From Algibacter sp. L1A34 (GTDB taxonomy: Bacteria; Bacteroidota; Bacteroidia; Flavobacteriales; Flavobacteriaceae): DNA of 64,000 bases. The stretch spans positions 3,114,001 through 3,178,000 of the forward strand of contig NZ_CP047029.1 in assembly GCF_009796805.1 (NCBI RefSeq), written 5' to 3'. Positions 6,781 through 61,227 of this stretch are shown here, piece after piece; positions within the stretch are counted from its first letter, which is position 1, and every line of letters starts with the position of its first letter. The translations under genes and the position numbers were made by a program. The notes under the pieces were generated by a model. The model did not search any database. It saw nothing but the letters and a program-made list of their open reading frames with translations, and was not told the origin of the DNA.

Positions 6781-6824
6781 TAAAAGTACTAAGTATATAG
6801 TTAATACTACGTAACTTTGGTTAC
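6781..6824 (-). promoter_or_regulatory. GTAAC-class Crp-type site and -7 box for the small membrane protein
   Basis: Inverted repeat GTAAC-TTTG-GTTAC at 6811-6824 and -7 box TACTTTTA (minus strand, 6788-6781). The repeat centre is 36.5 bp from the box end. The start codon is at 6733, giving a leader of about 40 nt. Confidence 0.7.
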
Positions 6825-6856
6825 AAAAAAAAGCCTCAATTTGAGACTCTTTTTTA
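6825..6856 (-). terminator. terminator-like hairpin with a twin at 8447
   Basis: Stem built on CTCA-ATT-TGAG with flanking A and T tracts, so it could work in either direction. It lies about 115 bp after the stop of the persulfide dioxygenase gene. The core AGCCTCAATTTGAGACTC is identical to the hairpin after the peroxiredoxin gene. Confidence 0.55.
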
Positions 6857-6971
6857 ATTTAATATATATGCGCCAATGCGTGCAATTTAAATCTTTTATT
6901 AACGTTGATTTTTCTTCAGGAAAACTATAATATTTAATATTAAATAGCTTTGTTAATTTTGTAATGAGTAA

Positions 6972-8315
6972 TTAATTAAACTCGTTAATATCGTCGCTAA
7001 GATTATATACTGTAACATTATTTATTAAATTTGAAATAATACTACTACCTGCTGCACTTCTATATCCACCAGCACAATGCACTACAATTGGTTTATCTGT
7101 AGGGATTTTGTTTTTAGAAACTCTTAATTGATTTAGAGGAATTGGGATGGCGCTTTCAAAAACCTTACCTTCATCTACTTCACTTGTATTTCGGATATCA
7201 ATAATTGTATATTGATTTGGATACTTTTTAAAGTTTTCAAGGTCTAAAGATTTGAATGTTTCGAATTTATTAGAACCTAAAGTTATAATTGATTTTATTT
7301 GCTTTTCATAACCAATTTTGGCTATACGACTAAGAATTGTTTTTCTGTCATTAATAGAATTAATTACCAAATGAAACGCTTCATTAGGTTCTACAATAGA
7401 ACCCAACCACGTTTCTACTTTATCATCTTCTGTTTCTGCAATAATATTAATACTTCCTTTAAGATGATTATATTTAAAATGTGAAGCCCTTCTTACATCA
7501 ATAATCAAACTGTCGTAATTCCTGAACTCGGTTATTCCAAAGTTAAAAGGTACATCGCAGAATGTAGTTTCAAAATTATCTGCACCTTCTTTATTAATAG
7601 CCACATTAAATCCAAAATAAGCAGGGATAAAAGGTTGATCTTTTAAAATGTGATTCACAAACTGATCTTCGGTTAAATCCTTAAAAGCCCAATTTTCATT
7701 TCGTTCTCTTCCTAAAGTACTTGATGGATCTGTACTCATGTTTTTACCACATAAAGAACCTGCTCCATGCGCTGGATACACTTTTGTAGTATCTGGCAAA
7801 TGATTAAATTTATTATGTATGGTATGATACATGCTTTTAGCTAATTCTTCTCTTTTAGCTTTCATGTTACCCGCTTTTTCTCGCAAATCGGGTCTTCCAA
7901 CATCGCCTATAAATAAGGTGTCTCCCGAGAACATAGCATAATTATTATCTATATCATTAGCTATAATTGTAATACTATCTGGTGAGTGCCCTGGTGAGTT
8001 AATTGCAGAAAATGTAATCGCTCCCATTTTTAGTGTATCACCATCATCAAATGCTTGGTGTGGATAGTTAGCTCCAACCAATTTACTTACATAAATTTTT
8101 GCTTCCGTCTCTTTATGTATCTGAAAATGACTGCTCACAAAATCTGCATGGGGATGGGTTTCAAAAATAGCTTTAATTTTTGCGTTATGCTTTTCTGCTA
8201 ATTCATAATAAGGCTTTGCATCTCTTGATGGATCTACAATAGCCATTTCATTATTACTTATTATAACGTATGAATAATGCGCTAATGGTTTGTCTTCAAA
8301 TTGTATAATATTCAT
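6972..8315 (-). CDS. persulfide dioxygenase-rhodanese fusion (MBL fold plus two rhodanese domains)
   Basis: Cytoplasmic enzyme of the ETHE1/CstB type, which oxidises persulfides to sulfite or thiosulfate. The metallo-beta-lactamase domain (about 1-245) has THPHADF (residues 53-59), the HADF variant seen in the CstB-like branch, then SPGHSPDS, FSGDTLF and VYPAHGAGS. The first rhodanese domain (about 265-345) lacks an active-site Cys. The second (about 355-447) has VVHCAGGYRSA with the catalytic Cys near residue 413. It sits beside peroxiredoxin, rhodanese and thioredoxin genes, which supports sulfide or persulfide detoxification. No perfect activator site was found in front of it. Confidence 0.92.
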   Translation of the reverse strand: MNIIQFEDKPLAHYSYVIISNNEMAIVDPSRDAKPYYELAEKHNAKIKAIFETHPHADFVSSHFQIHKETEAKIYVSKLVGANYPHQAFDDGDTLKMGAITFSAINSPGHSPDSITIIANDIDNNYAMFSGDTLFIGDVGRPDLREKAGNMKAKREELAKSMYHTIHNKFNHLPDTTKVYPAHGAGSLCGKNMSTDPSSTLGRERNENWAFKDLTEDQFVNHILKDQPFIPAYFGFNVAINKEGADNFETTFCDVPFNFGITEFRNYDSLIIDVRRASHFKYNHLKGSINIIAETEDDKVETWLGSIVEPNEAFHLVINSINDRKTILSRIAKIGYEKQIKSIITLGSNKFETFKSLDLENFKKYPNQYTIIDIRNTSEVDEGKVFESAIPIPLNQLRVSKNKIPTDKPIVVHCAGGYRSAAGSSIISNLINNVTVYNLSDDINEFN

Positions 8316-8446
8316 AATTTTGTCTTTTTATGTTTATCTATATAATAGAAAAATTGGTCTCCTTTTAAATTTAAAACTAATATATTGAAGGAGCGTTGTG
8401 TTTATCAATTTTAGTTTAAAAAAATATACTAATTGAGTTAAATTAG

Positions 8447-8476: not shown

Positions 8477-8490
8477 ATTTAAAAATTATT

Positions 8491-9210
8491 TTACTTTTTA
8501 AGAATGCTGTCTAACACTAAATCTTTATCCAGTTTTTTAGTACAGAAAAACCAGTCTTTACAATCTAACTCTTCAGTAGAGGTCATTCTTTCTTCTGCAA
8601 CGCCACAAGATCCAGCTGGAGATACTATAACATCGTCACCAGGATTCCAATCTGCAGGAGTTGCTACATTAAATTTGTCTGATGTTTGCATGGCTATCAA
8701 TGCTCTGTATAACTCATCAAAATTACGGCCTAAGCTTAAAGGGTAATAAATTATAGCACGAACGGTTTCTTCTGGATCTACAAAAAAGACAGCTCTAACG
8801 GCTTGGGTTTTACTTTCTCCTGGTTGAACCATACCATATTTTTTAGCGATATCCATAGAAATATCTTCTATTAAAGGAAATTTAACTTCAACGTTTTTCA
8901 TTCCGTTAAATTCAATTTTCTCCTTAATAGTTCTTAACCATGCAATATGGCTGAATAAACCATCTATAGATAAACCAATAAGGCTACAATTTGCTTTATT
9001 AAATTTTTCTTCTAAATGTGCAAATGTCATAAATTCTGAAGTACAAACCGGCGTAAAATCTGCTGGATGACTAAATAATATAGACCATTTTCCTTTATAA
9101 TCCGAAGGGTAATTAATTTCTCCTTGTGTAGTTACTGCTGTAAATTCTGGTGCTTTATCACCAATTCTTGGCATGGTGAAAGTTTCTTGTTTTTCTAAAT
9201 TTGCTTCCAT
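8491..9210 (-). CDS. peroxiredoxin, Prx6-like (archaeal-type with CxxxxxC tail)
   Basis: Thiol peroxidase reducing hydrogen and organic peroxides. It has the signature HPADFTPVC with peroxidatic Cys56. A C-terminal Cys pair (CKDWFFC) resembles the extension of archaeal Prx6-type enzymes such as Aeropyrum TPx. The length of 239 residues fits that branch. It is monocistronic, with a GTAAC-type activator promoter upstream and a terminator just downstream. Its promoter matches that of the rhodanese operon in element and spacing, so the two are probably co-induced. Confidence 0.92.
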   Translation of the reverse strand: MEANLEKQETFTMPRIGDKAPEFTAVTTQGEINYPSDYKGKWSILFSHPADFTPVCTSEFMTFAHLEEKFNKANCSLIGLSIDGLFSHIAWLRTIKEKIEFNGMKNVEVKFPLIEDISMDIAKKYGMVQPGESKTQAVRAVFFVDPEETVRAIIYYPLSLGRNFDELYRALIAMQTSDKFNVATPADWNPGDDVIVSPAGSCGVAEERMTSTEELDCKDWFFCTKKLDKDLVLDSILKK

Positions 9211-9246: not shown

Positions 9247-9290
9247 CAAATTTAAACCTATAGAGTAAGTCTATATATAACTTAAGTTAC
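9247..9290 (-). promoter_or_regulatory. GTAAC-class activator site and -7 box for peroxiredoxin
   Basis: Repeat ATAAC-TTAA-GTTAC at 9277-9290 (one base off the class consensus) and a perfect -7 box TAAATTTG (minus strand, 9254-9247). Spacing is 36.5 bp. Transcription should start near 9241 and the ATG is at 9210. Confidence 0.75.
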
Positions 9291-11636: not shown

Positions 11637-11996
11637 TTATTTATAATTTAATATGCCTCCTTTTAAATCGTAGATTTCTGTAAAACCCATTGCAGCTAAT
11701 TTATTCGAGCATTGTCTGCTTCTAGCTCCGCTTCTGCAATACACATAAACAGCTTGATCTTTGTTTAATTTACTAAACTCGTCATTAAAATTACTAGAAG
11801 CCGAATCTATGTTTTTTGAGTTTTTTATATGTCCAGAGTTAAACTCATTTGGAGTTCTAACATCTATTAATTGTACGTTTTTGTTTTGTGTCTGTGCTTT
11901 AAATTCGAGAATATCTAAAACTTTTATTGCACTATTTTGAGGCGTTTTAGATCCAAATATTGTTGTGAATATTGACATGATTATGATGCTTTTCAT
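11637..11996 (-). CDS. rhodanese-like sulfurtransferase
   Basis: 119 residues, single rhodanese domain. The active-site loop is YCRSGARSRQC, with the catalytic Cys in the persulfide-carrying position. The N-terminal 15-20 residues are mildly hydrophobic (IIIMSIFTTIFGS), so export to the periplasm is possible. It is the first gene of the five-gene operon that runs down to 9398. It has a GTAAC-type activator promoter in front. Confidence 0.9.
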   Translation of the reverse strand: MKSIIIMSIFTTIFGSKTPQNSAIKVLDILEFKAQTQNKNVQLIDVRTPNEFNSGHIKNSKNIDSASSNFNDEFSKLNKDQAVYVYCRSGARSRQCSNKLAAMGFTEIYDLKGGILNYK

Positions 11997-12015: not shown

Positions 12016-12059
12016 TAAATTTAATCTAATTCCTACATTTTATATGTAACCTAAGTTAC
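12016..12059 (-). promoter_or_regulatory. GTAAC-class activator site and -7 box for the rhodanese operon
   Basis: Perfect inverted repeat GTAAC-CTAA-GTTAC at 12046-12059, extended to TGTAAC and GTTACA, with -7 box TAAATTTA at 12023-12016. Spacing is 36.5 bp, identical to the peroxiredoxin promoter. Confidence 0.78.
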
Positions 12060-12938: not shown

Positions 12939-13805
12939 TTATGCAGTAACAGCTTCTTTTAGCTTAGTATTATGTTTGTTAAAAGCTAGTATTGGTATGG
13001 TTACAATTTCTTCCATTTCTCTAACCAAATCTCTATGAAATAAATTATCAAGACTTAAGCTATGTTTACGTTCTAACATGGCTAACATACTTGCTTTTTC
13101 ATTATCTAAAACACTTACAAGACCAGATTTTATTTTAGTTGCAGCCATAGTTTTAAATGTGATTTCTTTATAAGAAATTTGCTCTAATAGTATAGATTTA
13201 AATCGTACCATTTTTTCTTTAGCAGTAGTTGTATCTGTTTTATAAATATGAACAACTTCTATAAGAGCTTCAAACGGGCTTACAATTTCAATAAGTTTTT
13301 TTATAGGTAGAATATCTTCCTTTTCAAAATCTGTTGCATATACTATAGTTGAAATGCTTTTATAAACCATACCATTTGGTATCATCATTACTGGAACTTC
13401 AATTTTATCTAACAATATATTTGCTATATTACTAGAGAAATACGTTCTGTGACTACGGGTATCTTTAATACCTAGAAGTACTAAATCTGGTGATAATTTT
13501 TTGGATATGTCGAGGATAGCATTTTCAACTGAAATGTTTTCGACAACATGAATTTTAATAGGGTTTTCTCTAAATTCGTTTTTAAGATGGGTTTCGCAGT
13601 ATTTTGTAACAATATCTTTTTGCTCTTGAATCATATTATTCTTCAATACGTCAGAACGTTTTATAACAGAAATAGAAACAGGAGGAACATCGTAAACGTG
13701 CATCACGTGTAAATTTGCTTTCATAATATAACTAAAACGATAAGCATATTTTAATGCTGAAGCATCGTTTTTAGTACAATCTGTTGCATATAGGATAGTT
13801 TTCAT
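12939..13805 (-). CDS. universal stress protein, tandem UspA domains
   Basis: 288 residues from the ATG at 13805, chosen because the family start MKTILYATDCT begins there and the promoter box lies between it and the upstream in-frame ATG. There are two Usp folds (about 1-145 and 150-288). The ATP-binding signature G-x2-G-x9-G-S/T is degraded in the first domain (LGIKDTRSHRTYFSSN), so it may not bind ATP like the Usp array at 24-29 kb. It is monocistronic, with a TGAC-type promoter. Confidence 0.88.
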   Translation of the reverse strand: MKTILYATDCTKNDASALKYAYRFSYIMKANLHVMHVYDVPPVSISVIKRSDVLKNNMIQEQKDIVTKYCETHLKNEFRENPIKIHVVENISVENAILDISKKLSPDLVLLGIKDTRSHRTYFSSNIANILLDKIEVPVMMIPNGMVYKSISTIVYATDFEKEDILPIKKLIEIVSPFEALIEVVHIYKTDTTTAKEKMVRFKSILLEQISYKEITFKTMAATKIKSGLVSVLDNEKASMLAMLERKHSLSLDNLFHRDLVREMEEIVTIPILAFNKHNTKLKEAVTA

Positions 13806-13825
13806 AACACTTAATTTTATCTGAT

Positions 13826-13869
13826 TAAAATTATGATTATACATCTTTCAAAAAAATGACATTCGTCAT
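13826..13869 (-). promoter_or_regulatory. TGAY-class activator site and -7 box for the tandem Usp
   Basis: Perfect inverted repeat ATGAC-ATTC-GTCAT at 13856-13869. The -7 box TAATTTTA is at 13833-13826. Spacing is 36.5 bp. The leader to the ATG at 13805 is about 15 nt. Confidence 0.75.
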
Positions 13870-13919: not shown

Positions 13920-14393
13920 TTAACTGCTTTTTCCTGAAAGATCTAATATTTTTATACGGTATACTACGGGGGCTTTGTAAGATTTTGTTTTGTTGGGGAA
14001 ATCGTTTATGAACTGAGGGTATTCATGATCCTTATTAGCTATTATTTTTTTTAGACCTAAAGTAAATTTGTGTAATTGATGTTGTGCAAACGTGCCATCC
14101 AGTTCTTCAAATTTACCATGCACAAGGATAGATTTCCATTTGTTTATGGATTCTATTTCGGTTATTGCTAGAGATGTTGCATTGTTTAATCTCATAGCAT
14201 CGATTTTATGACCTTCATCAGAATAACTAATAATACAATTATCTTCTTTATTATAATAATAAGTAATAGGAATTGAATAAGGTTTATTTTCCCATATAAA
14301 AGATAAGTAACCAATATAATTAGTCTCTAAAATATGCAAGCTTTCGCTTTTGGTTAAATCTTTCATGACGTTATATTTTAAACTAGTATTCAT
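13920..14393 (-). CDS. pyridoxamine 5'-phosphate oxidase-like FMN-binding protein
   Basis: 157 residues from the ATG at 14393 (or 148 from 14366). The split-barrel flavin-binding fold is recognised from LGYLSFIW-like and KPYSIPITYYY strands, then the strand ending GKFEELD. Family members bind FMN or F420 and include nitroreductase-like detoxifiers. The further upstream in-frame ATG (14468) lies above the promoter box and is rejected. The two candidate starts sit in a 27-bp tandem duplication. It has a TGAT-type activator promoter. Confidence 0.8.
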   Translation of the reverse strand: MNTSLKYNVMKDLTKSESLHILETNYIGYLSFIWENKPYSIPITYYYNKEDNCIISYSDEGHKIDAMRLNNATSLAITEIESINKWKSILVHGKFEELDGTFAQHQLHKFTLGLKKIIANKDHEYPQFINDFPNKTKSYKAPVVYRIKILDLSGKSS

Positions 14394-14416
14394 GATATTA
14401 TATTTTAAAGTATTAT
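14363..14416. repeat. 27-bp tandem duplication at the start of the FMN-binding protein gene
   Basis: Two copies of 27 bp (14363-14389 and 14390-14416), differing at 4 positions, each beginning TCATGA. On the minus strand this gives two in-frame ATG codons exactly 9 codons apart, with LKYN repeated in the product. It looks like a recent local duplication of a start region. Confidence 0.75.
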
Positions 14417-14420
14417 TTAC

Positions 14421-14463
14421 TAAAAATATAATTATAATAGGTAATCTACAATGATATATATCA
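14421..14463 (-). promoter_or_regulatory. TGAY-class activator site and -7 box for the FMN-binding protein
   Basis: TGAT-ATAT-ATCA at 14452-14463 and -7 box TATTTTTA at 14428-14421. Spacing is 36.5 bp. The predicted transcript start near 14415 fixes the start codon at 14393 or 14366. Confidence 0.72.
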
Positions 14464-14506
14464 ATCAACTATAATTTTATAGATTCGGAATTTTAAATGA
14501 ATGAAA

Positions 14507-16914: not shown

Positions 16915-17367
16915 TTAATTAAACATCCAAGTTTTTTTCGATTTTTCATTTTCTAAGATTTCTTTAATCATCCTAAAAACAACATTTTTAACTTCTCTTT
17001 CATTATTTATTAATGAAATAATATCATCTTCAAGTTGTTCGTTTTCAATTCTAAATTCGGCAGTATTATGTTTGTATGTCTTATCGATTATTTTAACAAT
17101 ATTGTCTAAATTTAATTGTATCCGTTGCTGTATGTATTCGCACTGGTTTTTTAACTCAAAAATTTCAAGTTGTAATTCTCTTAATTCGTCCAGATTTTCG
17201 TATTCTAATAGTTCAGAAAAGTGCGACTCTATAAGAGTTTCTAAAAATTTTATGTCGAATAAATAAAACGCTATATCATTTTTCCAATGCTCTATTAAAA
17301 TATAAAGTTCGTCCCAATTAGCTTCTTTAATATAATTTGCGGTTGGTTTTATTCGGTAATTTTTCAT
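16915..17367 (-). CDS. hypothetical helical protein, first gene of the chaperone-MscS operon
   Basis: 150 residues, almost entirely helical and acidic, with heptad-like stretches (LRELQLEIFELKNQ). It has no known domain. Its N-terminal pattern W-x-N-D-I-A-F-x-x-x-D-x-x-F-L-x-x-L-I-x-S resembles the protein at 33087 (W-x-x-E-L-R-F-x-x-D-E-x-x-F-x-D-x-L-I-x-S), which follows Hsp20. I therefore see two paralogues, both next to chaperone genes. It has a TGAT-type activator promoter. Confidence 0.72.
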   Translation of the reverse strand: MKNYRIKPTANYIKEANWDELYILIEHWKNDIAFYLFDIKFLETLIESHFSELLEYENLDELRELQLEIFELKNQCEYIQQRIQLNLDNIVKIIDKTYKHNTAEFRIENEQLEDDIISLINNEREVKNVVFRMIKEILENEKSKKTWMFN

Positions 17368-17394: not shown

Positions 17395-17437
17395 TAAAAG
17401 TACTTTTAAAATGGCTCATTATAAATGATAAATATCA
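17395..17437 (-). promoter_or_regulatory. TGAY-class activator site and -7 box for the chaperone-MscS operon
   Basis: TGAT-AAAT-ATCA at 17426-17437, -7 box TACTTTTA at 17402-17395. Spacing is 36.5 bp. GGTAACC lies a little further upstream (17443-17449), reminiscent of the other half-site class but not palindromic with 4-bp spacing. Confidence 0.72.
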
Positions 17438-20777: not shown

Positions 20778-21200
20778 TTATGCTTTTTCGCAAGTATTAG
20801 ATTTTAGTTCCATCTCTAATTTTGCTAGCATGATGAGTTCAGATTTATTTAACCCAGAAAAAGAAGAAGCAATAGCATTAGCCGTTTTCATGATTAGTTT
20901 TTTAATAACTTTCGTAAATAGCTCTGGGTTTTCATTTTTGTAATTTACAAAATCATGAAAGCAAGTTTCGGCTTCATAGGCTCCGTTATTTAGCCAATCG
21001 AAAACAATTTCTATATGGTAAGCAGCATTTGTATGATAATGGTCTTCAGCAAGATCAAGGTGTAACCATTTTAGTTTAACAAGCTCTTTTAATTTGTTAA
21101 ACTCATCTGGATGTACTTTTTTATCGGCTGCAGCAATAGCATAGAACAGCTTACCAAGGTGTTGATAGAACTCTAGGGTTAACTTTGTTTTAGTTTCCAT
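20778..21200 (-). CDS. TerB-like helical protein
   Basis: 140 residues (ATG at 21200; 21209 is also possible). The N-terminal part LGKLFYAIAAADKKVHPDEFNKLKELVK, seen in shorter pieces, matches the TerB/tellurite-resistance-like fold with its AAAD motif, which binds metal in TerB. The C-terminus is helical and ends in a Cys-containing tail. It is transcribed divergently from the sensor kinase gene and shares one TGAT-type palindrome with it. Function uncertain. Confidence 0.65.
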   Translation of the reverse strand: METKTKLTLEFYQHLGKLFYAIAAADKKVHPDEFNKLKELVKLKWLHLDLAEDHYHTNAAYHIEIVFDWLNNGAYEAETCFHDFVNYKNENPELFTKVIKKLIMKTANAIASSFSGLNKSELIMLAKLEMELKSNTCEKA

Positions 21201-21222
21201 GTTTAGCAACGTTTAATTTTAC

Positions 21223-21296
21223 TAAAAATAAAGATAAAATATTGATTTAATCATGATATAAATCAGTCGTTCTTAATTATAAATCGTGCATTTTTA
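21223..21296. promoter_or_regulatory. shared divergent TGAY-class site between TerB-like gene and sensor kinase gene
   Basis: TGAT-ATAA-ATCA at 21254-21265. On the minus strand the -7 box TATTTTTA lies at 21230-21223. On the plus strand CATTTTTA (one mismatch) lies at 21289-21296. Both are exactly 36.5 bp from the centre, so one dimer could activate both genes. A second repeat TGAT-TTA-ATCA with a 3-bp spacer overlaps at 21243-21253. Confidence 0.68.
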
Positions 21297-21335: not shown

Positions 21336-23216
21336 ATGTTTAGACAAGATCAAGAAATATTTAATATTCTATTAGAAACGGTTTCCGAGGGTGTTATTAT
21401 TGTTGATAATCTCCAAAAAATAGTTGAAGTCAATGCATCGGTAGAATTTATTTTTGGATACACAAAAAAAGAAATTTTTGGCAAGGAGCTAAACGTATTA
21501 ATTCCGTCTAATTATCATCATAGTCACTCTAAGTATTTTAAAGCGTTTCTTAAGGCAAGTAAACGTATAAAAATGGGTGACGTTAGAGATATTTTTGCCT
21601 TAAAAAAAGATGGAACTATTTTTCCGGTAGAAGTAGAATTAAACCCTTTTCAAATTTATAACAAAACTTATGTTATGGCTTTGATTAAAGATGTTTCAGA
21701 AAAAAAGGAAATTGAAAAAAACTTAATGCTGCGTACCAAAGCATTACAATCTGCTAATAATGGCATAGTGATTACCGATGCTTTAAAAGATGATAATCCT
21801 ATCATTTATTTCAATTCGGCTTTTCAAAACCTTACGGGTTATTCCGAGGTAGAAATACTTAACCATAATTGTAGATTTTTGCAAGCTCAAGATAGAAATC
21901 AAGAACCTCTTAAAAAACTTCGAACTGCAATAAAAAACGGGGAAAGCTGCCAAGCAACGCTTCGTAATTATAAAAAAGATGGTAGCTTATTTTGGAATGA
22001 TTTGTACATTTTTCCGATAACGAATTCTAAAGGTATTGTTACAAATTTTATTGGTATTCAGAATGATGTTACACTAAGAAAAAAAGTAGAAGAAGAACGT
22101 CATCATTTAGCGTCTATTTTTGACGAGTCTTTAAATGAAATTTATGTTTTTGATGCTGAAACATTAAAGTTTATAAATGTTAATTATGGTGCGCAAATTA
22201 ATATAGGCTATAGTTTAGATGAATTAAAACACATGACGCCTTTAGATATTAAAAAAAATGATACCGAAATTGAATTTAGAAATACCATAGACGTTTTATT
22301 AAAAAAGAAAGTAAATAAGATTGAGTTTGAAACGTTGCATAAGCGTAAAAATGGATCAGAATATCCTGTTGAAGTTCATTTGCAATTATCAAACCTAAAC
22401 AACAAAGAAGTTTTTGTAGCTATTATTTTAGACATTACAGAACGTAAAAGTTATACTAATAAATTAGAAAATAAAGTAGAAGAACGAACCAAACAACTGG
22501 AGATGGCATTGGTTAAAGAAAAAGATATAAATGAATTGAAAACTAATTTTTTATCATTAGTATCTCACGAATTTAAAACACCTTTAAGTGGTATCTTATC
22601 TTCTAGCGAGTTACTTAGCAGATACCAATTAACCGAGCACCAAGAAAAACGAAATGAGTATATAAAAAATATCACGGATAAAGTGTATTATTTAAATAAC
22701 ATCTTGAACGACTTTTTATCGGTAGATAAGCTGGAGCGTGGAAAAGTGAATTATAGATTTAACCATTTTAAACTTAGTAAAGTAATTAACGAGGTTGTTT
22801 ATAATGCTAACATGCTTTTAAAAGATGGTCAGAATATAAAGTATCCCGAAAACATAGACGATTTATCTATATATCAAGATGAAAAAATTATTCAGTTAAT
22901 TTTCACCAATCTTTTGCACAACGCTATAAAATATTCCCCAGAAGGATCCATTATAGATATGCATATTGAACAGGATGATAAATTTATAACAGCAACTATT
23001 ACCGATCAAGGAATGGGTATTCCTGAGAAAGACCAAAAAAATATTTTTGAACGTTATTTTAGAGCACAAAATGCAATAAATATTCAAGGCACGGGCATAG
23101 GTTTAAATATCGTTAAAAATCATATAAATAATATAGGTGGTACTATTTTTTTTAAAAGTGAAGAAAATAAAGGATCCACTTTTACAATAACATTTCCGAA
23201 TATAGGGTTAGAATAA
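21336..23216 (+). CDS. sensor histidine kinase: FixL-like PAS, LOV domain, third PAS
   Basis: 626 residues, no membrane segment, so cytoplasmic. PAS1 (about 8-128) has His64 in HSKYF and Arg84 in DVRD, the same 20-residue spacing as the haem His200 and distal Arg220 of Bradyrhizobium FixL. PAS2 (about 135-250) has the blue-light LOV signature NCRFLQ with the photoactive Cys179, and the FMN-contacting NYKKDG, FWND and GIQNDVT. PAS3 is about 260-380. A coiled coil leads to the kinase core: H-box SHEFKTPL (His411), N-box NLLHNAIKYS, then DQGMGI and GTGIGL. It lies 27 bp before a receiver-Crp hybrid gene, its obvious partner. LOV is a firm call, haem binding a reasonable inference. Confidence 0.9.
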   Translation: MFRQDQEIFNILLETVSEGVIIVDNLQKIVEVNASVEFIFGYTKKEIFGKELNVLIPSNYHHSHSKYFKAFLKASKRIKMGDVRDIFALKKDGTIFPVEVELNPFQIYNKTYVMALIKDVSEKKEIEKNLMLRTKALQSANNGIVITDALKDDNPIIYFNSAFQNLTGYSEVEILNHNCRFLQAQDRNQEPLKKLRTAIKNGESCQATLRNYKKDGSLFWNDLYIFPITNSKGIVTNFIGIQNDVTLRKKVEEERHHLASIFDESLNEIYVFDAETLKFINVNYGAQINIGYSLDELKHMTPLDIKKNDTEIEFRNTIDVLLKKKVNKIEFETLHKRKNGSEYPVEVHLQLSNLNNKEVFVAIILDITERKSYTNKLENKVEERTKQLEMALVKEKDINELKTNFLSLVSHEFKTPLSGILSSSELLSRYQLTEHQEKRNEYIKNITDKVYYLNNILNDFLSVDKLERGKVNYRFNHFKLSKVINEVVYNANMLLKDGQNIKYPENIDDLSIYQDEKIIQLIFTNLLHNAIKYSPEGSIIDMHIEQDDKFITATITDQGMGIPEKDQKNIFERYFRAQNAINIQGTGIGLNIVKNHINNIGGTIFFKSEENKGSTFTITFPNIGLE

Positions 23217-23243
23217 AATAGCAAAAACTAAAAAAAAATACTC

Positions 23244-24299
23244 ATGAAAACAATTTTACTTATTGAAGATGATGTGGTTTTAAGAGATTGTACAACAGAA
23301 CTTTTAGAGCTATCTAACTACACGGTGGTAAAAGCTTCTAATGGAAAAATAGGAGTAGAGTTGGCAAAGTTAAAAAGGCCAGATATTATAGTTTGCGATA
23401 TAATGATGCCAGAACTCGATGGGTACGGTGTTATTAAAATGCTTTCAAAAAATAAAAACACCAAGTCTATTCCTTTTATATTTTTATCTGCTAAAACAGA
23501 GGTTTGTGATGTTAGAAAAGGTATGAATTTAGGCGCAGACGATTATATTAGCAAACCCTTTGCTATTAACGATCTTATTAACGCTATAGAAAGTCGTTTA
23601 GCTAAAGTCGCTATTTTACAAGATTTAGCTACAAAATCGAATACTACTAAAAGTGTAGATATTGAAGATGAAATAAAAACCATTAACGATTTAAAAAACT
23701 ATTTTGACGATTATGGTTCCATATTTAGATATAGTAAAGACCAGGTTATTTACAATGAAGGCGACCATACCAATTATATTTATTTAATTAACAAAGGCGC
23801 TGTAAAATGCCACCAAATACAGGAGCAGGGCAAAGAACTTGTAACGGCTCTTTATAAAGAAGACGATTTGTTTGGTTACACATCTTTTACGCAAAACATA
23901 CCACACAAAGAAACCGTTACCGCTATCGACGATACCGAGTTAACCGGTGTTTCTGTTATTGAATTTAATCAAATTCTTAACAATAATCATAAATTAACTA
24001 TCGAGCTTATGCAGTTATTATCTGATAACCTTATAGAAATAAAAAAGCAATTATTAGAAAAAGCTTATGCCTCGGTAAATAAAAAAACAGCAACTACTAT
24101 TTTAAAATTTGCCGAAAAAATAAATAGAAAGCCAGACGATCCAATAAAAATTTCTAGAAGCGATTTAGCAAGTGTTGCCGGAATTGCAACCGAAACATTG
24201 ATTAGAGCTTTAACGGAATTTAAAAAACTAGGTATTATAAAATCTGAAGGTAGAAATATAAAAGTAGTCGATATTGAAAAACTAAAGCAGATCTATTAG
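23244..24299 (+). CDS. response regulator with Crp/Fnr output (receiver + cNMP-fold + HTH)
   Basis: 351 residues. The receiver domain (1-120) has acidic pair E8-D9-D10, phosphoacceptor Asp52 (VCDIMMP) and KPF near 104. A cyclic-nucleotide-binding fold (about 155-270) and Crp-type helix-turn-helix (SRSDLASVAGIATETLIRAL) follow. The recognition helix TETLIR keeps the Glu and Arg that FNR (VETISR) and CRP (RETVGR) use on TGA half-sites, so it is the best candidate to bind the TGAC/TGAT palindromes in this window. It is co-transcribed with the kinase. The fusion brings FixJ and FixK functions into one protein. Confidence 0.9.
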   Translation: MKTILLIEDDVVLRDCTTELLELSNYTVVKASNGKIGVELAKLKRPDIIVCDIMMPELDGYGVIKMLSKNKNTKSIPFIFLSAKTEVCDVRKGMNLGADDYISKPFAINDLINAIESRLAKVAILQDLATKSNTTKSVDIEDEIKTINDLKNYFDDYGSIFRYSKDQVIYNEGDHTNYIYLINKGAVKCHQIQEQGKELVTALYKEDDLFGYTSFTQNIPHKETVTAIDDTELTGVSVIEFNQILNNNHKLTIELMQLLSDNLIEIKKQLLEKAYASVNKKTATTILKFAEKINRKPDDPIKISRSDLASVAGIATETLIRALTEFKKLGIIKSEGRNIKVVDIEKLKQIY

Positions 24300-24322: not shown

Positions 24323-24365
24323 TGATTAATATCATTTTGGTTTATGTGTATACCACTTAAATTAG
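24323..24365 (+). promoter_or_regulatory. TGAY-class activator site and -7 box for the first Usp of the array
   Basis: ATGAT-TAAT-ATCAT at 24322-24335, -7 box TAAATTAG at 24358-24365. Spacing is 36.5 bp. Leader about 16 nt. Confidence 0.7.
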
Positions 24366-25648: not shown

Positions 25649-25691
25649 TGACATTTATCATGTTTTAACATGGGTTTCTACTGTAAATTTG
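25649..25691 (+). promoter_or_regulatory. TGAY-class activator site and perfect -7 box in front of a non-coding stretch
   Basis: TGAC-ATTT-ATCA at 25649-25660 and perfect -7 box TAAATTTG at 25684-25691. Spacing is 36.5 bp. No start codon follows for about 380 bp. The repeat also forms arms AAAAC and GTTTT and could act as a 3'-end hairpin for the gene before it. Confidence 0.78.
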
Positions 25692-44765: not shown

Positions 44766-44859
44766 TGATGTATGTCAGTTTCTTTTTAAATTTTTTCTAA
44801 TTTTTTTTTATAGGACTGACTTAAGTCTTTAAATAGGTTAGTAATCTGCTTTACTTTAG
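44766..44859 (+). promoter_or_regulatory. tandem TGAY-class sites and -7 box of the third Crp-type regulator
   Basis: Site 1 TGAT-GTAT-GTCA at 44766-44777 and site 2 TGAC-TTAA-GTCT at 44817-44828, centres 51 bp apart (close to five helical turns). The -7 box TACTTTAG at 44852-44859 is 36.5 bp from site 2. Leader about 15 nt. Confidence 0.7.
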
Positions 44860-45612: not shown

Positions 45613-45656
45613 GCTACTTAAGTAGTATAAAGAGGTTTTAAGTGATAATATCTTTA
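45613..45656 (+). promoter_or_regulatory. GCTAC-class activator site and -7 box for the PepSY-like gene
   Basis: GCTAC-TTAA-GTAGT at 45613-45626, one base off symmetric. -7 box TATCTTTA at 45649-45656. Spacing is 36.5 bp. Confidence 0.7.
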
Positions 45657-45721: not shown

Positions 45722-46252
45722 ATGAAAAAGTTTTTAATTGGTTTATGTTTTATGGGCCTAACCAGCTCAATGTTTGGACAAGAAGGAGTCTTGTATTCAG
45801 CAAAAATTTTAAAAGAAAAGGTACCTGTAGAAGTAGTGTCTTCAGTAGAAAATGATTTTAATGATTATAGCGTTATAGAGTATGAGGCGGTACCTATAAC
45901 TATGATAGAAGATCAGGTAATTGTTACTAAAAATGAAGATTTTAACCCTAATTATTATGATACTTATGAAGTAAGACTTTCTGGAAAAGATGCAAAAATA
46001 AGTGCTTATTATAATGCCGATGGCACATTAGAGAGTACTTATGAAAGTATTAAAAATATAGCATTACCAAGTGCTATAGACAGAGCGGTTTTTAAAAAGT
46101 ATCCTAAAGCTAAATTGTTGTCAGATAGATATGTGTCTACACACTACGCAAGGGATGGTAAAACTTCGGTGTATTACCATGTTAAAATTATGAATAACGG
46201 TAAAACACACCGTATGTACATAGATGGTAATGGAAACATACTTAGAGGGTAG
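45722..46252 (+). CDS. periplasmic PepSY-like protein
   Basis: 176 residues. Signal peptide (about 1-19, ending SMFGQEG). The rest has strands such as TYEVRLSGKDAKISAYYNADG and repeats the same pattern, ending MYIDGNGNILRG, as in PepSY-like proteins of Bacteroidota. Periplasmic, function unknown. GCTAC-type promoter. The next gene follows 72 bp later and may be in the same transcript. Confidence 0.75.
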   Translation: MKKFLIGLCFMGLTSSMFGQEGVLYSAKILKEKVPVEVVSSVENDFNDYSVIEYEAVPITMIEDQVIVTKNEDFNPNYYDTYEVRLSGKDAKISAYYNADGTLESTYESIKNIALPSAIDRAVFKKYPKAKLLSDRYVSTHYARDGKTSVYYHVKIMNNGKTHRMYIDGNGNILRG

Positions 46253-47096: not shown

Positions 47097-47155
47097 AGAA
47101 GAACTAGAACTGCTACTTAAGTAGCAGTTCTAGTTCTTCTATGGTGTTATATTTA
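47097..47155 (+). promoter_or_regulatory. 44-bp perfect palindrome holding a GCTAC-class site, and -7 box for the single-domain Usp
   Basis: The palindrome spans 47097-47140 without a single mismatch. Its centre is GCTAC-TTAA-GTAGC (47112-47125). The outer arms repeat GAACTAGAACT. -7 box TATATTTA at 47148-47155. Spacing is 36.5 bp. The outer arms could fold as a cruciform or add a second binding element. Confidence 0.78.
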
Positions 47156-47700: not shown

Positions 47701-47740
47701 AAAAGTATCTAAAGTGAATTTAGATGCTTTTTTAAATTTT
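47701..47740 (+). terminator. terminator of the single-domain Usp gene
   Basis: Stem AAAAGTATCTAAA and TTTAGATGCTTTT (13 bp, one T-G pair), loop GTGAA, then T run. It overlaps the stop codon of the convergent MtfA gene (47732-47734). Confidence 0.75.
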
Positions 47741-48511
47741 AGATTTATCTTTTGTACGAAAACAAACTTTAAGCATTTGGTATAGGTCTGGATGGTTTTT
47801 CTTCATTTTTTTAGGTTGTTCAAAAAAATATTCTGAAGCTACTGCTAAAAACTCGGCTTCATTGGTACCTCCATAATTTCTAATATCAGATTTATTATTA
47901 TTTATGGCTTCCATTTCTTTATGAATAATTTTTAACCAAGGAATAACGTAGGGTTGTTGTATTAAAGTTTCTGGTACGCCATCTGTTAAGCCATCTAGTT
48001 TGTCTATTAAATGAACAAATTCATGAATACCAGTATTGTGAATGTGAGATTTTTTCTGAAAACCTCCATGCAGTGCTTTTCGTGATAAAATCATTTGATG
48101 TTCAAATTGTCCGGTACCAACCATACCTGCAATTTGTCGATTTTCATCGGTTTGAGCAAAACCTAAATCTTCATTAAAATGGTCTGGATAAACCAACACA
48201 GTACTTAAATTTTTATAATGCCATTCAGAAAAATTAAAAACGGGTATAACAGCGCTACATGCAATTAATATTTTATCAAGATCTTCTAGGTCAAAACCAA
48301 CACTTTCTATGTTTATTTCGCTTAAAAACACCATTATACGCTTCTGGAATCGTTTTTGTTCGGTAGTCGGTAAACTTTTGTAAAAGTTAACATGTTGTAT
48401 TATTAAGGTATGCCAATTAGTCGGGAATTTTTCAGCTTTCTTCTTTTTGGTAACATAAAGCGTGTAAATAGCAAAAGCTACTAAAAATATAAAAGCAATA
48501 ATAAATGCCAT
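47732..48511 (-). CDS. MtfA-like M90 family metallopeptidase
   Basis: 259 residues. A membrane anchor (about 2-20) and then the MtfA domain with HEFVHLIDKLDG (zinc-binding HExxH) and the later NEAEFLAVASEYFFEQP. E. coli MtfA is an aminopeptidase linked to the regulation of glucose transport via Mlc. The N-terminal anchor is common in Bacteroidota. A GCTAC-type site lies in front. Confidence 0.88.
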   Translation of the reverse strand: MAFIIAFIFLVAFAIYTLYVTKKKKAEKFPTNWHTLIIQHVNFYKSLPTTEQKRFQKRIMVFLSEINIESVGFDLEDLDKILIACSAVIPVFNFSEWHYKNLSTVLVYPDHFNEDLGFAQTDENRQIAGMVGTGQFEHQMILSRKALHGGFQKKSHIHNTGIHEFVHLIDKLDGLTDGVPETLIQQPYVIPWLKIIHKEMEAINNNKSDIRNYGGTNEAEFLAVASEYFFEQPKKMKKNHPDLYQMLKVCFRTKDKSKI

Positions 48512-48533: not shown

Positions 48534-48580
48534 TAAAAGTATTCTATTTTTTAAAGAAAAGAAATTGCTACTTAGGTAGC
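48534..48580 (-). promoter_or_regulatory. GCTAC-class site with looser spacing, near the MtfA gene
   Basis: GCTAC-TTAG-GTAGC at 48567-48580, perfect arms. For the minus-strand gene a TACTTTTA box lies at 48541-48534, 39.5 bp from the centre, 3 bp longer than the rule. For the plus strand only TTCCTTTA (48603-48610) is at 36.5 bp, without a gene directly after. Direction uncertain. Confidence 0.5.
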
Positions 48581-52173: not shown

Positions 52174-53070
52174 TTATTTTAAAAAATCTGGGTTATTAAA
52201 ACTCGGATTTGGATATTTATAAAATCCTTCTCCAGTAGAAACACCTAATTTGTTTTTATCTATATAATTCTCTTTTAAGTATTTTACTGTTTTTATTTTT
52301 AATTCATTTTTGGTCTTTTCCGCAGAAATTTTACCAATATTATAAGCCGAAGTGATACCAACAACATCAAGAATACCAAAAGGGCCTAAGGGTGCGCTAG
52401 TTGCTTTCATCCATGTTTTATCTATAGTTTCTTGGTCTGCAACGTCACCTACTAATAAATCTAGTGCAGAACTAAGCAATGGCACTAATAATGAATTTAG
52501 AATGTATCCTGGTTGCTCTTTATGTAAAGGTAAAGTTAGCATGCCAATGGCTTTAGCAAAGGCCACTACATCCTTAAAAACTTGTGGGTCTGTTGTTGTA
52601 TGTTCCATGATTTCTGCCGTGTTATGGAGCCATATTTTATTCGCAAAATGCAAAGCTAAAAATTTAGAAGGTCTTCCTGTTATTTTAGCAAATTGACTAG
52701 GTAAAAGTGTTGAAGAGTTGGTTGTGAAAACAGTTTTTTTAGGAGCAACTTTTGCTAATTTTTTGTAAAATTCTGTTTTTATTTTTGGGTCTTCTGGTAC
52801 TGCTTCAATTAGTAAATCTGCATTTTTAACCGCTTCGGCTAAATCGGAAGTGTAGCTTAGGTCTTGGAAGGTTCGATCTAGCTGTTGTTGGGTTGCATTT
52901 AAATCTGTTTTATAGGCGTCGCTCAAACCATTAAATTTTGTTTTTGCTTTTTCCAAAACTTCATCATTAATGTCATAAACGGTAACATTGAATCCATGAA
53001 AAGCGGTTTGAAATGCAATTTGATATCCTAAAACACCACTTCCCGCGATGGTTATATTTTTGTAGCTCAT
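52174..53070 (-). CDS. 3-hydroxyacyl-CoA dehydrogenase
   Basis: 298 residues: NAD-binding domain with ITIAGSGVLGYQIAFQ (residues 6-21), catalytic HFANKIW region (His about 145), and the C-terminal helical domain. It oxidises 3-hydroxyacyl-CoA in fatty-acid breakdown or runs in reverse during butanoyl-type synthesis. It is monocistronic, with a TGAC-type activator promoter, a link between lipid or redox metabolism and the stress regulon. Confidence 0.9.
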   Translation of the reverse strand: MSYKNITIAGSGVLGYQIAFQTAFHGFNVTVYDINDEVLEKAKTKFNGLSDAYKTDLNATQQQLDRTFQDLSYTSDLAEAVKNADLLIEAVPEDPKIKTEFYKKLAKVAPKKTVFTTNSSTLLPSQFAKITGRPSKFLALHFANKIWLHNTAEIMEHTTTDPQVFKDVVAFAKAIGMLTLPLHKEQPGYILNSLLVPLLSSALDLLVGDVADQETIDKTWMKATSAPLGPFGILDVVGITSAYNIGKISAEKTKNELKIKTVKYLKENYIDKNKLGVSTGEGFYKYPNPSFNNPDFLK

Positions 53071-53125: not shown

Positions 53126-53168
53126 CAAAGTTAATATATCCTATTAAGCCCAGTAATGACCTAAGTCA
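53126..53168 (-). promoter_or_regulatory. TGAY-class activator site and perfect -7 box for hydroxyacyl-CoA dehydrogenase
   Basis: ATGAC-CTAA-GTCAT at 53156-53169, -7 box TAACTTTG at 53133-53126. Spacing is 36.5 bp. Confidence 0.76.
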
Positions 53169-53314: not shown

Positions 53315-53812
53315 TTATTTTTCTTCTAACTCAAGGAGGTTGCTTTTTCCTTTAATAGTTTCGGGGTTTACAGTTGGTTTTATCACAATTGCATTATTTA
53401 TTCCTTTAACTCCGAGAATTATTTCTGTTGCTTTTTTTGCGGCTTCTTTTTCATAAGGAAATGTTACTTCTCCAGAGAGGTTAACCCAACCATCACTAAC
53501 TTCAATCTCTATTTTTGTTTCTGGTATAGCTGTATTCTCTTTAAAAGCATATACTATTGCTTTTGCAATTTCTAAATCTGTTTTTTGATAATCTGTACCA
53601 TATTTTATTTCTATATCTTCTGCTACTGCTCTTACGCCTTTTACCTTTCTAACTGCTTTTTTTGCGGCTACTTTTATAGAAAAATCATCAACAACTCCAG
53701 TTAGCATTACTACGCCGTCTTCTACTACCACACCAATTTGGTTTTCTTCGATGTTAGGTTGAAATACCAACTCATCTAATATGTCTTGTTTAATTTGACA
53801 ATCAGTTTTCAT
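53315..53812 (-). CDS. BON-domain protein (OsmY-like, two domains)
   Basis: 165 residues with two BON domains (about 1-70 and 75-147): VVVEDGVVMLTGVVDDF and IEVSDGWVNLSGEVTFPYE. No signal peptide. Most Bacteroidota relatives have three BON domains; here the chain ends soon after VNPETIKGKSNL, where a third would begin, so it may be truncated. TGAC-type promoter. Confidence 0.88.
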   Translation of the reverse strand: MKTDCQIKQDILDELVFQPNIEENQIGVVVEDGVVMLTGVVDDFSIKVAAKKAVRKVKGVRAVAEDIEIKYGTDYQKTDLEIAKAIVYAFKENTAIPETKIEIEVSDGWVNLSGEVTFPYEKEAAKKATEIILGVKGINNAIVIKPTVNPETIKGKSNLLELEEK

Positions 53813-53850: not shown

Positions 53851-53893
53851 TAAAGATATGCTGTTGAAGTAGTATTTAAAATGACTTATGTCA
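53851..53893 (-). promoter_or_regulatory. TGAY-class activator site and -7 box for the BON protein
   Basis: ATGAC-TTAT-GTCAG at 53881-53894, -7 box TATCTTTA at 53858-53851. Spacing is 36.5 bp. Confidence 0.74.
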
Positions 53894-55663: not shown

Positions 55664-56140
55664 CTATTTTAGATGTGATCTTAACATCCAAGCTGTTTTC
55701 TCGTGTTGTTCCATAAGTCCAGTTAGATAATCGCTAATACCATCAGCTTTCCATTTATCTGCAATAGGTTTTATTTCTTCTCTTAGAAAAATAATAATAC
55801 TTTCATGGTCTTCTAATAATTCGGCAAATATACTTTGGCTATCATTTTTACCTTTTGTTTTTTCGGTAAGGTGTGTTAATTCAGAATATTTTTCTAAGCT
55901 TGCAGATACATAATGACCTATCATACGTATTTTTTCTGCTACAGTATCAACAACTTCTTGTTGTTCATTGTATAAGGTTTCAAGATAAAGGTGTACAGAG
56001 TGAAAATCTGGGCCTTCAATATTCCAATGGAAATTTAATGTTTTTGAATATAAAACAAATTCATCTGCTAATACTATTGACAATTGATCTGCAATAGCTT
56101 GTCTGTTTTCATCTGAAATTCCGATGTTAGGAGTTTTCAT
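55664..56140 (-). CDS. dps: Dps-type ferritin-like DNA-protection protein
   Basis: 158 residues. The ferroxidase motif is clear: LNFHWNIEGPDFHSVH (ligand His and Asp), then LYNEQQEVVDTVAEKI. Twelve subunits form a shell that oxidises iron with peroxide and protects DNA. No signal peptide. TGAC-type activator promoter. It lies between the reductase gene and the second ABC-2 exporter operon. Confidence 0.93.
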   Translation of the reverse strand: MKTPNIGISDENRQAIADQLSIVLADEFVLYSKTLNFHWNIEGPDFHSVHLYLETLYNEQQEVVDTVAEKIRMIGHYVSASLEKYSELTHLTEKTKGKNDSQSIFAELLEDHESIIIFLREEIKPIADKWKADGISDYLTGLMEQHEKTAWMLRSHLK

Positions 56141-56169: not shown

Positions 56170-56212
56170 CAAAGGTATTATAAGCCTAAAGTAATTACAC
56201 TGACCTATATCA
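56170..56212 (-). promoter_or_regulatory. TGAY-class activator site and perfect -7 box for dps
   Basis: ACTGAC-CTAT-ATCAGT at 56199-56214, -7 box TACCTTTG at 56177-56170. Spacing is 36.5 bp. Confidence 0.76.
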
Positions 56213-59666: not shown

Positions 59667-59674
59667 AATGAAGC

Positions 59675-61153
59675 TTATTTATTGATAAACGGTATTATTT
59701 TTTCTGGTTCTCCTGTAGAGGTGTAAAGGTTGGCAATAGCTTGGTAGTATTCATTAAGTGCTACCAATTGTTCTATTTTCGATTTTTTGTATAAGAGCGT
59801 GGCATCAATAACATCTATAGATTTTCCTAAACCTTCTTCAAATCGTCTCGTATTAATTCTTAAATTTTCTTTAGCCAATGCAACTGTTGCAGATAAGCTA
59901 TTGTAAAGCTTTTGTTGATTTAGCGCATTCACGTAGTTAGATTGAACAAGTAAGTGAATTTGTTGTAAAGCATATTCCTTCGCATTTTTAACTTCTTTTT
60001 GTAAATGTTTTTTAGCTTTAAATTGGTGAATATCTTTAAACCCGTTAAAGATATTTATTTGGGCTTGCACCCCTACAATAAATTTAGGAGGAATAATCGA
60101 GAGCTCATCACGTACAATATTGTAACTACCAAAAGCAGCTATGTTGGGCATAAATTTAGATTTTTCTAAAGCAAGGGCTTGTTTTGCCATTTCTTCTTTT
60201 TGCCCAATTAAACCTAAAATTGGTTGTTTTTCATAAGCTGTATTCAATAACGCTTCAAAATCTAAATAAAGATCTCTATAAGCAATGCTGTCCATAACCT
60301 TAAACTGAAAATCATCAGGAACGTTCATTGTAGAGCGGAGAGCCATGATGGCTAAAGTCTCTTTATTAAGGTCGTTGTTTAAATCCTTTTGAGCGTTTGC
60401 TACAGCAACTTGCGCTCTTAATAATTCGTGTTTGGGAAGAATTTCTAACTGAACAGCACGTTCAGCTTGTTCTTTATGTTTCAACATACCATTATAAACG
60501 GCTTCACGAGTTTGTACAACTTGTTTTATAAGAACTAGGTTTAAATAGCGCTCAATAAGCTCATTCGCAATGTCATCTTTTACTTGTGTAAATTCAATGT
60601 TTGCCGAATTTAGCTCTGCTTTTGCGTATTTTTTAGCTGCAATTATTTTTCCGCCTGTAAATAAAGGTTGGGTTGCTACTAAAGCTGCTGTTGGGAATTG
60701 TTGGTTGTCTACCTCCATATTTGGGTAGTCTGGAAATTGGCCTAAAACACTAGATAGTGTACTAAAAGCACTTTCCGTACTAACACCAGAAAGACCTATT
60801 TCATCGCCATAGGCTGTTACAAATGCGGCACCATATTTAGCTCCTAGTTCATCTAAAGAACTCGAAATTTGGGAGGTGTTTACTTCTATGTTCTCGCTGA
60901 GGTAAGTATAACCACCCAACAAATTAATTGAAGGTAAAAAGTTGCCTTTAGCCGCCTTGTCTTCATTTACTTTTTGTTGTATGCGCTCGTTATATTGTTT
61001 AATTTTACTGTTGTTGGAGTAACTTAGTTCTAAGGCTTCAGAAATACTTATTACTTTCTCTTGTGCTTTCGCATAAGATGTGAGTATCATCATAAGTAGA
61101 AAAGTCATCTTTGCGAATCCTGCTTTACGTTTTGTTCTTACTCGATCTTTCAT
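59675..61153 (-). CDS. TolC-family outer membrane efflux protein
   Basis: 492 residues. Signal peptide (about 10-30, ending YAKAQEK) after a basic start MKDRVRTKRKAG. SISEALELSYSNNSKIKQYN begins the mature channel; two helical repeats; the C-terminal YYQAIANLYTSTG. First gene of a four-gene export operon with a TGAT-type promoter. Confidence 0.92.
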   Translation of the reverse strand: MKDRVRTKRKAGFAKMTFLLMMILTSYAKAQEKVISISEALELSYSNNSKIKQYNERIQQKVNEDKAAKGNFLPSINLLGGYTYLSENIEVNTSQISSSLDELGAKYGAAFVTAYGDEIGLSGVSTESAFSTLSSVLGQFPDYPNMEVDNQQFPTAALVATQPLFTGGKIIAAKKYAKAELNSANIEFTQVKDDIANELIERYLNLVLIKQVVQTREAVYNGMLKHKEQAERAVQLEILPKHELLRAQVAVANAQKDLNNDLNKETLAIMALRSTMNVPDDFQFKVMDSIAYRDLYLDFEALLNTAYEKQPILGLIGQKEEMAKQALALEKSKFMPNIAAFGSYNIVRDELSIIPPKFIVGVQAQINIFNGFKDIHQFKAKKHLQKEVKNAKEYALQQIHLLVQSNYVNALNQQKLYNSLSATVALAKENLRINTRRFEEGLGKSIDVIDATLLYKKSKIEQLVALNEYYQAIANLYTSTGEPEKIIPFINK

Positions 61154-61184
61154 CTATTTATAAAAGTTTTATCTAATGTCTTGG

Positions 61185-61227
61185 CAAAGGTTTAATTCTT
61201 TAGAATGAATAAGTATGATTTAAATCA
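61185..61227 (-). promoter_or_regulatory. TGAY-class activator site and -7 box for the second efflux operon
   Basis: ATGAT-TTAA-ATCAT at 61215-61228. -7 box AACCTTTG (one mismatch) at 61192-61185. Spacing is 36.5 bp. Confidence 0.66.

Follow-up and report, generated by a model that had tools for sequence, protein, structure and literature searches.

In class II promoters of Escherichia coli activated by CRP or FNR, the dimer site is centred at -41.5 and its spacing is fixed. The Fnr operator is TTGAT-N4-ATCAA, with T as the outer base, and the CRP operator is TGTGA-N6-TCACA, with G as the outer base. Crp/Fnr-type control can also be fed by a sensor, as in the FixL-FixJ-FixK cascade, in which a PAS histidine kinase governs cbb3 and stress genes by this route. 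Here we describe a 64-kb stretch of the Algibacter sp. L1A34 genome (the window hereafter; bases 3114001–3178000 of a single-contig 4.64-Mb genome, 30.7% G+C), in which three kinds of palindrome lie at one fixed distance from TAnnTTTG-type promoter boxes, together with three Crp/Fnr regulators, one of them a receiver–Crp fusion (REC-Crp). Very probably, judging from sequence, these palindromes are class II operators (-41.5) of Crp/Fnr-family dimers at primary-sigma TAnnTTTG promoters, a chassis common to at least three regulators of the window. Two described systems bear on this locus, as far as the accessible parts of their sources go: LovK-LovR, where a LOV histidine kinase is tied to the stress response (PMC4844311), and HcpR2, whose motif is GTAACnnnnGTTAC (Rodionov 2005, PMC1274295).

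Boxes were counted by script as TAnnTT followed by TG, TA or AG, and spacing was taken from the palindrome centre to the box end. The window holds 20 strict palindromes (16 TGAY-N4-RTCA, 2 GTAAC-N4-GTTAC and 2 GCTAC-N4-GTAGC), 15 of which have a box at exactly 36.5 bp (12 TGAY, 2 GTAAC and 1 GCTAC). With one palindrome mismatch allowed, 18 pairs are found at 36.5 bp, whereas 12 alternative distances give 0–3 each; one pair lies at 35.5 bp. Two further pairs at 36.5 bp have boxes with one mismatch, namely AACCTTTG on the minus strand for the palindrome centred at 61221.5 and CATTTTTA on the plus strand for that at 21259.5. Taken together, these pairs involve 19 palindromes at 36.5 bp, the same number as given in an earlier note on this DNA, which had also named the two mismatched boxes (61192 and the plus-strand one at 21289) and the single palindrome at 39.5 bp (48573.5). 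Two strict palindromes within reading frames, 14214.5 and 32901.5, lack a box at 36.5 bp; 44771.5 lacks one too, but its imperfect neighbour 44822.5 has it. The claim of that note that this architecture governs most of the window is not supported as worded: 18 genes lie directly behind boxes, and a rough 38 of 63 genes are covered only when genes on the same strand and no more than 100 bp apart are treated as operons, the 63 being our selection out of 70 listed frames. Its placement of the sites in front of genes has one exception: behind 25654.5, a noncoding RNA follows instead of a protein gene.

The 36.5-bp pattern is real and beyond chance. In the own genome, TGAY-N4-RTCA followed by TAnnTTTG at the fixed spacing gives 21 matches, against 1 in the reversed control. 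A gapped search over 31 spacings places 21 of 31 matches at 36.5 bp (Poisson P ~1e-30), with 8 matches in all in the reversed control, so the sharp genome-wide peak by which the pattern was to be judged is present. Counts over relatives carry no correction for shared descent. The gapped pattern is matched in every one of 60 family genomes, 1098 times overall as opposed to 377 for the control, and 51 of the genomes exceed their own control; among genomes listed in full, 43 of 80 gapped matches are at 36.5 bp in five of them and 15 of 38, counted by hand, in the sixth (G033). Across the phylum, the fixed-spacing pattern occurs in 84 of 198 genomes, with 160 matches against 4 in the control for 18 other family genomes, 107 against 7 for 30 genomes of the same order or class, and 58 against 7 (hand count) for the remaining 149. 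REC-Crp is present in 25 of the 60 family genomes, and TGAY sites over control amount to 4.5 per Mb with it and 2.1 without it (P 4e-4, kinship uncorrected).

The spacing was then compared over the 80 best loci from a scan with the REC-Crp protein (up to 21 kb each, 1.6 Mb in total), drawn from flavobacteria and metagenome bins and nearly all labelled Flavobacteriaceae or Flavobacteriales; the nearest named relative is that of Mariniflexile fucanivorans, at 82–83% identity. TAnnTTTG is found 108 times at 36.5 bp and no more than 5 times at each remaining distance between 20 and 60, TAnnTTTA 195 times (at most 9 elsewhere) and TAnnTTAG 73 times (at most 2 elsewhere). TAnnTTTC occurs 10 times at 36.5 bp, and TAnnTTTT has no peak there (4). 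When 946 orientation-counted intergenic palindromes were stacked with no condition on the box, TAnnTTT(A/G) emerged de novo at +29.5 to +36.5; the same stacking of 137 in-frame palindromes gave no box signal at these positions. Every one of the 80 loci holds at least one boxed TGAY site. In 70, a boxed site lies within 350 bp past the REC-Crp stop, where the 20-nt spacer has an identity of only 0.38; the spacing stays in these loci while the sequence varies. A frame stands close behind 347 of 376 boxed sites. The genes include Usp (167), relatives of window gene 20778 (37), Hsp20 (17), pyridoxamine-oxidase-like genes (13) and DnaJ (11), and 80 have no relative in the window (largest cluster, 23); some of the latter resemble, by eye, cbb3 oxidase (11) and a ribosome hibernation factor (4).

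In Flavobacterium psychrophilum, the box occupies positions -12 to -5 relative to mapped 5′ ends, according to the accessible part of the source (PMC9723704). The 36.5-bp distance to the box end, as seen in the genome and in the 80 loci, then sets the palindrome centre at -41.5, which agrees with the class II placement near -41.5 proposed in the earlier note. The halves of the TGAY sites are not alike. In 366 sites (L032–L111, five palindromes boxed on both strands excluded), the outer base of the upstream half, read as xTGAY, is C in 188, A in 153, T in 18 and G in 7, and that of the downstream half is A in 352, C in 10, G in 2 and T in 2. Neither the Fnr-type T (18/366 upstream and 2/366 downstream halves) nor the CRP-type G (7/366 and 2/366) is therefore characteristic of these sites. 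TGAY operators, those of the window included, are used asymmetrically, CTGAY almost only upstream and ATGAY downstream. A need of the promoter for the downstream T was ruled out as the cause: the base there is C in GTAAC and GCTAC sites, so RNA polymerase does not generally demand T. The polarity may come from asymmetric contacts made by the class II dimer or from heterodimers of REC-Crp paralogues.

The three Crp/Fnr proteins of the window, P0001 (12141–12773, minus strand), REC-Crp (P0002; 23244–24299, plus strand) and P0003 (44866–45600, plus strand), all carry cNMP_binding and HTH_Crp_2 above the Pfam cut-offs and thus belong to the Crp/Fnr superfamily. Ten HTH_Crp_2 proteins are encoded in the genome, three of them receiver–Crp fusions, and the recognition helix E..(I/G)R is common to 6 of the 10. 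No NCBIfam equivalog at cut-off was found for P0001 and P0003, nor for P0002 among its best 25 of 105 matches. REC-Crp, a response regulator composed of receiver, cNMP_binding and HTH_Crp_2, has an intact receiver: D9, D52 and K104 are kept in 83 of 83 sequences and S82 in 82, with Thr in one, and in the recognition helix E317 and R321 are kept in 83 of 83. Regulators and operators were paired by collecting perfect 5-base palindromes at 36.5 bp near relatives of the regulators, with no motif named beforehand. Near the best 30 P0001 loci, out of 84 of 100 genomes with a match, GTAAC accounts for 33 of 41 palindromes and occurs at least once in 21 loci; near 12 P0003 loci, GCTAC accounts for 5 of 8 and is present in 5. 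At 16 other distances, 0–4 palindromes were found in the P0001 loci and 0–1 in the P0003 loci. TGAY sites cluster within a few kb of REC-Crp genes. The sites had been bound into one logic in the earlier note; the geometry is indeed common, but three window regulators pair by neighbourhood with three half-sites, so the regulons look separate.

The palindrome that makes up 33 of 41 near P0001 orthologues is the HcpR2 operator; since GTAACnnnnGTTAC is already published as the HcpR2 motif in the accessible text (PMC1274295), the GTAAC operator is not new, but the genes found with it here are different. Judged by similarity to window proteins, the genes behind GTAAC sites are of the MBL-rhodanese, cytochrome-Tll0287, rhodanese and P0001 types, and others resemble, by eye, TauE-type exporters and a sulfide-quinone reductase (L124–L153). 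A C-x5-CC motif in P0001 and its paralogue L031 may mark a thiol sensor. Elsewhere in the own genome, TGAY sites stand before genes that resemble, by eye, cbb3 oxidase, HemN, ribosome hibernation factor and copper nitrite reductase. One such locus (L154, 333000–352999) unites a short-kinase REC-Crp, Usp, a CxxC Crp/Fnr protein and cbb3-like genes, and 3 of its 4 palindromes are boxed, one on both strands; at the third REC-Crp locus, 1 of 3 palindromes is boxed, on both strands.

The gene before REC-Crp encodes a PAS-LOV-PAS histidine kinase, P0004 (21336–23216, plus strand), with the LOV domain at about residues 131–258 and Cys179. This pair of LOV kinase and receiver–Crp protein at 21336–24299 is absent from the earlier note. 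A histidine kinase ends directly upstream, beside REC-Crp, in 79 of the 80 loci; in the exception, L075, only 152 bases separate the start of REC-Crp from the end of the contig. These 79 kinases comprise 48 shorter than 520 aa without the LOV motif, 27 with it, and 4 variants, 3 of which keep the cysteine. The LOV domain of the window kinase matches solved chains entered as blue-light photoreceptor, LOV domain and phototropin; by whole-protein E, the 60 matches listed (4e-37 to ~1e-22) include a sensory-box/FixL fusion at 4e-37, 2pr5 ‘Blue-light photoreceptor’ at 7e-28 and 5dkk ‘LOV domain’ at 6e-27. The long kinases have LOV-type sequences, with the adduct Cys in 31 of 32, both Asn in 32 of 32, Gln242 in 25 of 32 and Arg187 in 18 of 32. 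Because Cys and Asn are kept and Gln242 and Arg187 vary, light sensing by the kinase is likely, and a flavin redox role is possible. The LOV kinases as a single clean clade were rejected, as the tree requires several changes (LOV group 12). Since a short-kinase REC-Crp of the own genome has Usp, cbb3-like genes and a CxxC Crp protein as neighbours, the LOV version is one branch of a wider, probably oxygen-linked family. Autoregulation of the kinase was also rejected as a general rule: in 78 of the 80 loci, the kinase side could be counted, and a boxed site points at the kinase in just 7 and lies on that side on either strand in 48.

Behind the strict TAAATTTG box of the 25654.5 site, no frame longer than 37 aa is found before the next promoter. 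The region 25697–25985 folds with -85.8, against -47.9 (sd 4.3) for shuffled sequences (z -8.8), and contains a terminator-like hairpin. The structured noncoding RNA was placed at 25697–25968 on the plus strand, with ends deduced from the sequence, a model unit at 25747–25886, and the terminator-like hairpin with its T tail at 25930–25963. A model of the RNA was built from seven homologues and searched in 83 sources. The strong-match set consists of 23 of these sources, chosen for having model matches, 22 of which gave 34 strong matches. In relatives the units are in tandem, ~180 nt apart, with up to five in L107 (12578–13420) and others in L082 (12581–13266). In 31 of the 34 cases, the match lies in the gap that follows the counterpart of window gene 25248–25634; those outside it are two in L051, and L059, in which no orthologue of this gene was found. 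That gap also holds a boxed site in 34 of the 39 loci with the flanking gene, and two or more in 17. Weak model matches on the minus strand that overlap plus-strand ones are probably mirror images of the hairpins.

The 34 strong matches, in an alignment fitted to the RNA model itself, pair in 93.8% of cells; shuffles reach 81.5% and slid versions no more than 52.4%. The corresponding covariation values are 0.480, 0.246 and at most 0.146, and changes occur on both sides in 38 of 44 pairs. An independent fold recovered both outer helices as well as the terminal hairpin, with 29 of 36 pairs compensatory, and did not recover the small inner helices. Some of the fold z-scores come from single-base shuffles. 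At the gathering score of Rfam, no match was obtained in the window and in seven RNA-holding loci; the structured RNA is a new family. The own genome has a single copy up to an E of 0.001. In the family, 8 of 60 genomes have an RNA match, less than 2 kb from a REC-Crp gene in 7; in 6 of these 7 the RNA is downstream on the REC-Crp strand, and in G037 a weak match is on the opposite strand. The eighth, G008, has a weak match and no REC-Crp. Under the strict filters, no match was found in 18 of the 25 genomes with REC-Crp. The simplest reading would be a small RNA or RNA array controlled by REC-Crp and transcribed separately from Usp; alternatively, the RNA could be a leader or attenuator of Usp. 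Repeated units of a TGAY site and a terminator-like hairpin without a frame also occur at L099:13069–13400, L053:12411–12830 and L064:12412–12810, and are possibly further small RNAs.

We propose that Crp/Fnr-family dimers would activate Bacteroidota-type (TAnnTTTG) primary-sigma promoters from -41.5. The LOV histidine kinase most likely phosphorylates the adjoining REC-Crp, which would read (C/A)TGAY-N4-RTCAT and switch on Usp, Hsp20, Dps, BON and others together with the structured RNA. P0001 may read GTAAC-N4-GTTAC and control sulfur genes (rhodanese, persulfide-type), and P0003 may read GCTAC-N4-GTAGC. The TGAY sites are probably shared with REC-Crp paralogues and Fnr-like proteins encoded at other places in the genome. 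A bolder proposal, which we put forward tentatively, is that the blue-light or flavin-redox kinase and REC-Crp represent a new two-component type, marked by activation from -41.5, Usp-type target genes, a post-transcriptional arm of tandem small RNAs, and a fixed polarity with CTGAY upstream and ATGAY downstream. Several points weigh against the proposed scheme. Binding, activation, phosphotransfer, light or redox sensing and RNA function are what we infer; the geometry, its conservation, the neighbourhood association of regulators with operators, and the intact receiver and LOV residues are observed. Pairing by neighbourhood is an association and not binding, and that of GCTAC stands on few sites, 5 of 8, with none in 7 of 12 loci. 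In 18 evenly picked 20-kb stretches of the own genome, none of 19 palindromes is boxed at 36.5 bp, but frames of at least 100 aa contain 16 of the 19, so this weak local test mainly shows the rarity of free-standing palindromes (3 in 360 kb). No clear difference was seen in the 80 loci between the operators of LOV-type and short-kinase loci, and an uninformative comparison, of 52 ordinary boxes only, gave no signal for a -33 element in ordinary promoters. Genomes without REC-Crp are still above control, with a median of 2.1 sites per Mb, so other regulators use TGAY sites too.

A rival idea is that a single ordinary Fnr/Crp protein occupies every TGAY site of the genome and that REC-Crp is a bystander or acts elsewhere. 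The shared E..(I/G)R helix in 6 of 10 Crp/Fnr proteins, the TGAY sites ahead of genes read by eye as cbb3 oxidase, HemN and copper nitrite reductase, and the persistence of sites in genomes without REC-Crp would fit it, but sites gather within a few kb of REC-Crp genes and are richer in REC-Crp genomes, and we regard it as rather unlikely. Binding at -41.5 can equally obstruct RNA polymerase, so the palindromes might be repressor operators overlapping promoters. However, spacing fixed to a single bp in hundreds of promoters is expected for contact with RNA polymerase and not for blocking, which makes repression improbable. Some intergenic repeats carry built-in promoters, and palindrome and box could accordingly be one repeated element, a mobile or copied promoter, without functional spacing. 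With a spacer 38% identical across 70 loci and the same spacing for three different palindromes, we give this next to no credence. Activation by Crp/Fnr dimers from the class II position is thus the reading we prefer.

The sites of the window are as follows. On the minus strand, GTAAC palindromes lie at 6811–6824 (box TACTTTTA, 6781–6788) ahead of 6422–6733 (103 aa, no family found), at 9277–9290 with one mismatch (box TAAATTTG, 9247–9254) ahead of the peroxiredoxin 8491–9210 (Pfam), and at 12046–12059 (box 12016–12023) ahead of the rhodanese 11637–11996; GTAAC sites at 36.5 bp flank orthologues of P0001. GCTAC sites flank some homologues of P0003. They are found on the plus strand at 45613–45626 with one mismatch (box 45649–45656), ahead of 45722–46252, whose homologues come after GCTAC sites in relatives, and at 47112–47125 (box 47148–47155), ahead of Usp 47215. 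A third, on the minus strand at 48567–48580 ahead of the peptidase M90 47732–48511, has its box at 39.5 bp and is the one clear off-spacing case.

TGAY palindromes on the minus strand are at 13857–13868 (box 13826–13833) ahead of Usp 12939–13844, and at 14452–14463 (box 14421–14428) ahead of the pyridoxamine-oxidase-like 13920–14468; since the listed starts of both genes overlap the boxes, the true starts are probably downstream. Others are at 17426–17437 (box 17395–17402) ahead of 16915–17367, at 53157–53168 (box 53126–53133) ahead of 3HCDH 52174–53070, at 53882–53893 (box 53851–53858) ahead of BON 53315–53812, at 56201–56212 (box 56170–56177) ahead of the ferritin-like (Dps-type) 55664–56140, and at 61216–61227 (box-like AACCTTTG, 61185–61192) ahead of efflux genes, the first being OEP 59675–61153. 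The palindrome 21254–21265 lies between divergent genes (21223–21296, both strands), with the minus-strand box TATTTTTA (21223–21230) directed to 20778–21209 and the weak plus-strand box CATTTTTA (21289–21296) towards the kinase. Plus-strand TGAY sites are at 24323–24334 (box TAAATTAG, 24358–24365) ahead of Usp 24387, at 25649–25660 (box TAAATTTG, 25684–25691), a likely noncoding-RNA promoter, at 26012–26023 (box 26047–26054) ahead of Usp 26073, at 32426–32437 (box 32461–32468) ahead of Hsp20 32504, at 37482–37493 (box 37517–37524) ahead of ThrE 37551, and, with one mismatch, at 44817–44828 (box 44852–44859) ahead of P0003.

Our study suggests a readable regulatory grammar for the Flavobacteriaceae, an important group of marine bacteria. 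The neighbourhood of a half-site placed exactly 36.5 bp from the box can be used to assign it to a regulator, and regulons thus become predictable from sequence. A kinase resembling a light sensor is linked to a stress regulon, and a new RNA family comes to light, together with an immediate hypothesis on how it is controlled. In the accessible open-licence literature, subscription papers being outside the search, no description of the REC-Crp system, its operator or the RNA was found. The sites share with E. coli class II CRP/FNR promoters a dimer site centred at -41.5, the fixed spacing and the TGA...TCA core, and differ in the Bacteroidota box TAnnTTTG, the strong half-site polarity, the outer base beside TGA (A or C, in place of T for Fnr or G for CRP), and the use of GTAAC and GCTAC by other regulators. 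As in FixL-FixJ-FixK, a PAS histidine kinase would feed Crp/Fnr-type control with cbb3 and stress genes, whereas here receiver and Crp output are joined in one protein and many of the kinases carry LOV. The P0001 operator and the HcpR2 motif are the identical palindrome GTAACnnnnGTTAC; in the available text of its source, the latter stands before hcp in Bacteroides and others, and here it lies beside rhodanese, MBL-rhodanese, TauE-like and cytochrome genes (PMC1274295). Similarly, the link of a LOV sensor kinase with the stress response is shared with LovK-LovR as described in the accessible part of its report (PMC4844311), but the partner here is a DNA-binding REC-Crp protein.

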